Shown: positions 36,139 to 36,376 of the stretch, in pieces
Layout of the letters: each line of letters begins with the position of its first letter
Numbering within the stretch: position 1 is the stretch's first letter
NCBI GenBank assembly: GCA_016867035.1
Contig: VGKO01000005.1
Location: 1-36,898, forward strand
Source: Candidatus Pacearchaeota archaeon
GTDB lineage: Archaea > Nanobdellota > Nanobdellia > Pacearchaeales > GW2011-AR1
Length of the DNA: 36,898 nt
Direction: 5' to 3'
Translations under genes and position numbers: made by a program
Notes under the pieces: generated by a model
Database searches by the model: none
Told to the model about the DNA's origin: nothing
Seen by the model: only the letters and a program-made list of their open reading frames with translations

Positions 36139-36220
36139 CGCCGACGCCCGGAATCGAACCGGGAAATCCTTGCGGAAACCTGCTCTCAAGGCAGGCGGAG
36201 TACCATTGTCCCACGTCGGC
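36139..36220 (-). tRNA. tRNA-Ser (anticodon TGA)
   Basis: This is a class II tRNA on the minus strand. The acceptor pairs GCCGACG (36214-36220) with CGTCGGC (36140-36146), 7 bp, and position 36139 supplies discriminator G. The anticodon arm CCTGC-CTTGAGA-GCAGG gives anticodon TGA. A long variable arm with TCC/GGA around GCAA follows, then the T arm CCCGG-TTCGATT-CCGGG. No CCA is encoded and no intron is present. A TTTAAA box at 36246-36251 lies 28.5 nt before the 5' end. A second, broken copy of its 5' end lies upstream. Confidence 0.95.
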
Positions 36221-36245
36221 TTAATTTCTTTAATATTTTATTATT

Positions 36246-36251
36246 TTTAAA
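36246..36251 (-). promoter_or_regulatory. TATA box for tRNA-Ser
   Basis: TTTAAA in ACTTTAAAAATAA on the minus strand is centred 28.5 nt before the mature tRNA 5' end, as expected when transcription starts a few bases upstream of it. Confidence 0.6.
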
Positions 36252-36256
36252 GTAAT

Positions 36257-36352
36257 CTGTGGGACAATGTAGAGTACCATTGACTTCAAAATATACTTGT
36301 TTTGAAGGGACAGAAAATAATTGATTTTCTGTATCCCACGTCGGCTTAATTT
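36257..36352 (-). ncRNA. tRNA-Ser 5'-end copy with double-hairpin insert (candidate structured RNA)
   Basis: The 30 bases covering the tRNA 5' half and flank (36198-36227) recur here in two blocks: 36272-36282 and 36334-36352. They are separated by a 51-nt insert made of two perfect hairpins (36284-36291 with 36300-36307, and 36310-36318 with 36324-36332). An inverted copy of eleven tRNA bases at 36259-36269 closes the fold. Together, 36259-36264 pairs with 36334-36339 around three hairpins, with only 0-2 bases between stems, giving a cloverleaf-like four-way junction. A TATA box at 36371-36376 sits 28.5 nt upstream of the copied tRNA 5' end (36345). No complete tRNA can form. Confidence 0.5.
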
Positions 36353-36370
36353 TAAGAGACTTGTGATGTT

Positions 36371-36376
36371 TTTAAA
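36371..36376 (-). promoter_or_regulatory. TATA box for the tRNA-like element
   Basis: TTTAAA in AGTTTAAAAACATC on the minus strand is centred 28.5 nt before the copied tRNA 5' end at 36345, exactly the spacing at the intact tRNA gene. Confidence 0.5.

Follow-up and report, generated by a model that had tools for sequence, protein, structure and literature searches.

What is an interrupted copy of the start of a tRNA gene doing next to the intact gene, and what are the two perfect hairpins that interrupt it? The question is raised by a stretch of Candidatus Pacearchaeota archaeon DNA (contig VGKO01000005.1 of assembly GCA_016867035.1; 36,898 nucleotides (nt), hereafter the window), near the end of which a tRNA-Ser(UGA) gene is preceded by a broken copy of its own 5′ region. 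An earlier note on this DNA had offered a tRNA-derived small RNA, a relic of a split or duplicated tRNA gene and the scar of a small structured mobile element as explanations, and random debris as the reading to adopt if its checks failed. Our comparison with related genomes led us to favor, with moderate confidence, a family of miniature gene-free elements that insert into tRNA genes and that would integrate as a folded strand through a host tyrosine recombinase of the XerA/integron type. The genome from which the window was taken is referred to below as G000 (the window being its contig C5), a genome of the same genus as G001 and one of another genus as G009. The L12/P1 and L10 proteins identify G000 as archaeal.

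The tRNA-Ser(UGA) locus and its interrupted copy

Re-reading of the sequence located every feature that the earlier note had listed, all of them on the minus strand. The intact tRNA-Ser(UGA), which we regard as both the target and the restored gene, occupies positions 36139..36220 (ARAGORN; Rfam RF00005, 55 bits). Along the minus strand, tRNA-Ser nt 1–12 come first, then a 51-nt double hairpin and nt 13–23; an inverted copy of 11 nt and, after it, a second promoter lie between these and the intact tRNA. The outer copy of nt 1–12, designated X (GCCGACGTGGGA, 36334..36345), is exact, and the corresponding copies in the family as a whole stop 12–14 nt from the tRNA 5′ end. The 51-nt insert (36283-36333) separates this copy of nt 12 from the copy of nt 13 and consists of hairpin 1 (36310..36332), with a perfect stem of 9 bp (ACAGAAAAT/ATTTTCTGT), and hairpin 2 (36284..36307), with a perfect stem of 8 bp and the loop CAAGTATA. 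It is followed by Y, the copy of nt 13–23 (CAATGGTACTC, 36272..36282), and by Y′X′ (CATTGTCCCAC, 36259..36269), an 11-nt inverted copy of tRNA nt 7–17. The first 5 nt of Y form the 5′ side of a third hairpin, and Y′X′ closes both this hairpin and a 6-bp stem. When this strand was folded, the 6-bp stem enclosed the three hairpins with z scores of -4.9 (RNA) and -6.2 (DNA), and none of the shuffled sequences folded equally well.

Two TATA-like boxes of the same sequence (TTTAAAAA) were observed. Box A (36369..36376) lies upstream of the outer copy and is read as the original tRNA promoter, and box B (36244..36251) lies within the insert, before the intact tRNA. The spacing had been reported as equal before the copy and before the real gene, and it is, at 27.5 nt from the center of the box to base 1 rather than the 28.5 nt given. 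The complete insert would be 125 nt long (36209..36333), a length taken from the distance between both copies of tRNA nt 1–12 and by analogy with the 97-nt insert described below; it would comprise the hairpins, the copy of nt 13–23, the inverted copy, promoter B and the restored tRNA nt 1–12.

The tRNA-Ser locus is present again in the same assembly, on contig C25. The end of contig C5 (36847-36898) shares the segment GAATTTTCAATTAAATTTAGGAAGAAGTTAATACGT with contig C25 (locus L061, around 735-800), which suggests either strain variants or a duplication around tRNA-Ser. The possibility that the two contigs represent independent insertions was dropped, as relatives carry kinase, tRNA-Ser and ribosomal protein L12/P1 as one locus. 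Because of this single locus in the relatives and the segment shared near the end of C5, the two contigs may be strain variants of one locus, and they were not used as proof of movement.

Recurrence at tRNA genes, empty sites and the common fold

The arrangement in the window is more than a chance occurrence, since it was found again at other tRNAs and in other genomes. A pattern describing the 24-nt hairpin 2 gave 14 matches in 180 genomes of the family, with 0 in the reversed control; 12 of the 14 adjoin a tRNA gene and are accompanied by a partial copy of it, and the remaining two, inside coding sequence, look like chance. The identical 24-mer occurs at other tRNAs in other genera, and a double hairpin without the rest of the arrangement adjoins tRNA-Lys on contig C4 of the same assembly. 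A phylum-wide scan of 371 genomes with the same motif returned it beside known elements in the same GTDB family only, together with two further matches that are likely chance, so that the hairpin motif, as patterned, appears to be confined to one GTDB family; one related-looking element was seen in another family of the order (G058).

The frequency of such copies was determined for all tRNA genes of three genomes, taken without selection (in G001, the best 30 loci). An exact copy of at least 10 nt of the gene's own end was found within 320 nt at 11 of 42 tRNA genes in G000, 6 of 30 in G001 and 17 of 29 in G009. For exact self-matches of at least 12 nt the counts were 10/42 tRNAs in G000 and 7/30 in G001, against 2.0% and 2.3%, respectively, of swapped pairs, and in G009 a 3′ copy was present at 18/29 tRNAs, compared with 6/802 of swapped tRNA/flank pairs. 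A larger survey of 193 distinct tRNA genes, seeded with nothing but the terminal 8 nt at either end of the tRNA, identified a copy of the gene's own 3′ end at 57 and of its own 5′ end at 14 (0.67 and 0.45, respectively, expected from swapped pairs); these frequencies are biased upward because part of the set was fetched for carrying elements, a bias that affects neither the copy lengths nor the three unselected genomes. In this set the border of the copy lies mostly 12–13 nt from the tRNA 3′ end and 12–14 nt from the 5′ end.

Read toward the tRNA, each unit consists of X (12 nt), hairpin 1, hairpin 2, Y, in complete copies Y′X′, a spacer, and X joined to the intact gene. This order is alike in 5′ (D-arm) and 3′ (T-arm) insertions, which are always on the outer side of the gene, and the units measure about 60–130 bp and are at times tandem, as at tRNA-Leu, -His and -Trp. 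Among matches to the covariance model scoring >35 bits near a tRNA, 37 of 41 point toward the tRNA, irrespective of the end at which they lie (26 and 7 counted directly, and four reassigned by hand to the copied tRNA because a neighboring tRNA was nearer). Elements at the 5′ end consequently present the hairpins in sense to the gene, and those at the 3′ end in antisense; the hairpin order follows the insertion site and not the direction of tRNA transcription.

Several individual loci illustrate the range of these arrangements. The tRNA-Val gene at C2:9108-9178 of G000 (L092) has an element at both its 5′ and its 3′ end. Downstream of tRNA-Trp in G009 (L279, contig C11) are two tandem 275-bp units with about eight back-to-back hairpins, one of them having the 24-nt hairpin 2 oriented opposite to the usual 3′ elements. 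In G137 (L050/L064, contig C19) the region downstream of tRNA-Leu holds a related subtype. Its cut falls in the T-loop (GTTCG, then AATCC), and it forms two tandem units of 92 bp, having two hairpins only and a shorter stem. An array of TGCTCCCGCCGA-type tRNA-end fragments with hairpin pairs was found in G039 (L206, contig C24), with no intact tRNA in the fetched stretch. Below about 45 bits the covariance model, R1, also matches hairpin pairs upstream of protein genes, and these were excluded from the family. Such pairs, resembling hairpins 1 and 2, occur in many repeats, in front of protein genes or between them, in G119 (L190-L195), G043 (L184-L189) and G106 (L202), those in G119 having common flanks such as TTCTCTAAGAAGGACTCAG.

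An empty and a filled site were identified within one genus, g115. In G205 a 97-nt insert lies between nt 12 and 13 of tRNA-Ser and the tRNA start is repeated; in G216 the promoter and tRNA of G205 are joined directly and the insert is absent. This pair displays what is seen at integrative elements, namely insertion within a tRNA gene, a restored end and a direct repeat. The insert in G205 also tracks its own tRNA, with GTGCGA/TCGCAC in place of the GTGGGA/TCCCAC found elsewhere. The tRNA-Ser(UGA) adjoining L12/P1 is clean in many genomes of the family, including at the conserved position in G001, and the tRNA-Ser element is absent from most relatives. According to the earlier note, a clean tRNA locus lacking the element in close relatives would point to debris; the absence is real, and it is evidence of insertion instead.

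The two hairpins were compared over 43 distinct element sequences: 93% of cells were paired, and 10/16 base pairs showed changes on both sides, 7/9 in the case of hairpin 1. The covariation score was 0.29 vs 0.11 for shuffled and ≤0.10 for slid partners, in an alignment that was fitted to the covariance model and so leans toward the structure. Compensatory changes, for which the note had suggested a search across relatives, are thus found in both hairpins. Six complete elements from five genomes, on both sides of the gene and at Ser(UGA), Ser(GCU) and Leu, gave the same junction when folded independently: a 6-bp stem, hairpin 1 (8–9 bp), hairpin 2 and hairpin 3.

Proposed mechanism and relation to known systems

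From these observations we infer mobility as a process and integration by way of a folded strand. The element would enter a tRNA gene 12–13 nt from its 5′ end (D-arm) or 3′ end (T-arm), and the displaced tRNA end would be replaced by the copy that the element carries. One strand of the excised element may fold such that Y′X′ pairs with X and Y and rebuilds the tRNA target duplex, with the two hairpins standing at its crossover point. The folded strand would then be a single-strand mimic of the tRNA/element Holliday junction, the two element arms being closed as hairpins. A host tyrosine recombinase of the XerA/integron type could exchange a single strand with the tRNA gene, an exchange that would give the observed product, and replication would resolve it, as happens when CTX phage or an integron cassette inserts.

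The insert is too small for any open reading frame (ORF), and the integrase that adjoins the attachment (att) site of integrative elements is lacking. A match to the tyrosine recombinase (phage_integrase) family was present in all eight genomes searched; host recombinases of the XerA_Arch type are present, and both recombinases of G000, one on contig C27 and one on contig C15, best match the XerA/integron-integrase model, with matches to the integron-integrase model below the cut-off. The best candidate for the enzyme, and no more than a candidate, is accordingly a host recombinase of the Xer/integron type. Two other partners were considered. Reverse transcriptase (PF00078) was absent from the incomplete assemblies of G000 and G009, and a retroelement or retron-derived insert was rejected, as these two loaded genomes do not share this domain. 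The Y1 transposase (PF01797) was absent from seven of the eight genomes, G000 and G009 included, and present in G024 only; a miniature inverted-repeat transposable element (MITE) of the IS200/IS605 type, or of the type formed by repetitive extragenic palindromes (REP) and their associated tyrosine transposases (RAYT), was rejected for want of this partner.

One of the two closest parallels, the other being integron cassettes, is with CTX phage, in which attP(+) is a forked hairpin of single-stranded phage DNA that is recombined by host XerC/XerD with exchange of a single strand pair (PMC3089051). The tRNA elements share with attP(+) a folded strand, inverted att copies and a forked hairpin rebuilding the chromosomal target duplex: in six complete elements the inverted copies pair into a forked mimic of the target, the exact closing stem being present in only 9/39 of model-detected elements. 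Like CTX phage, they contain no integrase and, as we propose, would rely on host Xer-type recombinases. Unlike attP(+), they target the D- or T-arm of many tRNAs and not dif, and they are about 100 nt long without genes. No phage genes are present in the insert, and viral contigs gave no exact match to hairpin 2 nor to the T-arm/hairpin-2 pattern.

Integron gene cassettes have been found in archaea (PMC9668308), and their attC sites resemble the tRNA elements in having imperfect, structure-conserved single-strand folds, tandem arrays and a host tyrosine recombinase of the XerA/integron class. The elements differ in lacking a cassette ORF and the attC R-box pair and in targeting tRNA genes instead of attI; the R″/R′ pair (RYYYAAC ... 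GTTRRRY) was found in 0/7 elements and RYYYAAC alone in 2/7. With tRNA-targeting integrative elements (genomic islands) they share site-specific insertion in a tRNA arm and restoration of the displaced end by the element, and they differ in being tiny and devoid of genes, with one hairpin design across many tRNA specificities and use of both 5′ and 3′ ends. They are short, non-coding, hairpin-forming and dispersed like MITEs, REP and bacterial interspersed mosaic elements (BIME), and Rickettsia palindromic elements; unlike these, they have a strict tRNA position, internal segments derived from the target and a four-way junction, and no partner transposase was found.

Alternative explanations and implications

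Several observations weigh against the folded-strand reading. None of the elements carries a recombinase gene or was found beside one, the recombinase loci are without tRNAs or strong element matches, and in G009, the most heavily loaded genome, the sole recombinase match is a broken one of 86 amino acids. The exact 6-bp closing stem was detected in the 9 of 39 elements cited above, at least one of these instances being the tRNA itself (3.9% in swapped pairs); the full junction is therefore an intact form or a subtype and not universal, so either an element can be present without it or decay has affected most copies. Weaker pairs of hairpins are found in front of protein genes as well, and these genomes are therefore hairpin-rich in general. 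The data are metagenome assemblies, in which no mobility, circle or transcript was observed, and duplication of a tRNA end followed by separate insertion of a hairpin pair would leave an identical product.

The alternative that survives best, although we consider it unlikely, is an insertion element that moves by different means, for instance through a double-strand transposase that duplicates 12 nt of target at tRNA ends, the inverted copy having arisen by fold-back copying. The direct repeat of 12–13 nt at a fixed position fits a target-site duplication equally well, the inverted part is missing from many copies, and casposons, which target a tRNA 3′ end, duplicate about 14 nt there. A plain target duplication leaves unexplained, however, why tRNA-specific Y and Y′X′ lie inside the inserts at several tRNAs, and the only terminal inverted repeats that belong to the insert itself are its hairpins.

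It is more doubtful still that these are structured RNAs, regulatory or small, that accompany tRNA genes, are transcribed with them as a 5′ leader or 3′ trailer and are maintained because selection acts on RNA structure. The compensatory changes in hairpins 1 and 2 would fit such a role, as would the promoter upstream of the copy in the window; the element of G205 likewise lies behind the original promoter, and the tRNA may therefore come from a long-leader transcript. A single oriented hairpin order that is sense at 5′ sites but antisense at 3′ sites is evidence against the tRNA transcript having a conserved RNA function, and so is the patchy presence among close relatives; the only Rfam 15 match at gathering score is the tRNA itself. 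Since a promoter precedes it, the window copy may yet give rise to the tRNA-derived small RNA that the earlier note envisaged; the family as a whole, with its opposite hairpin directions at the two ends and with the tRNA-Ser element absent from G001 and most relatives, is not accounted for in this way.

Local accidents, in which slippage or template switching at tRNA hairpins duplicates tRNA ends and captures unrelated intergenic hairpins, are very improbable. Tandem duplications are common beside tRNAs and intergenic hairpin pairs are numerous in these genomes, but accidents of this kind would not be expected to bring the same 24-nt hairpin 2, unchanged, to different tRNAs of several genera, with a sharp border at 12–13 nt at both tRNA ends and a single shared fold. 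The same arrangement at other tRNAs and in related genera also disposes of random debris. An origin as the remnant of a tRNA gene that was split, permuted or intron-bearing is scarcely credible: the copy does represent the 5′ part of a tRNA with an interruption at position 12/13, and disrupted tRNAs are known from archaea, but the adjoining tRNA is complete and needs no second half, no anticodon arm was seen in any partial copy read, and the same structure occurs at the 3′ ends of many tRNAs. A split or permuted gene was rejected as the tRNA is contiguous (36139-36220), and so was an archaeal intron spliced at a bulge-helix-bulge motif (BHB), no splicing being needed because the intact tRNA comes after the insert.

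The scar of a small structured mobile element is thus well supported among the origins first proposed, by the family at many tRNAs, the empty site, the fixed insertion point and the conserved junction fold. The hairpin-insert family is previously unnamed; we found no description of such elements in the open-access literature, and they are far smaller than any integrative element known to us. We suggest, tentatively, that they constitute a new class of minimal mobile DNA, gene-free folded single strands of about 100 nt that would carry a copy of the tRNA target on a four-way-junction scaffold and would have colonized up to half of the tRNA genes in some small-genome archaea via a hijacked host Xer-type recombinase. 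An incomplete tRNA copy in a genome of this kind need not be a relic of a split tRNA. If our interpretation is correct, essential tRNA genes would be a crowded landing site for gene-free elements, and the rule of entering 12 nt in from either tRNA end and rebuilding that end would account for the survival of dozens of hits. The elements would then provide a natural, sequence-defined set of archaeal folded-strand recombination sites.
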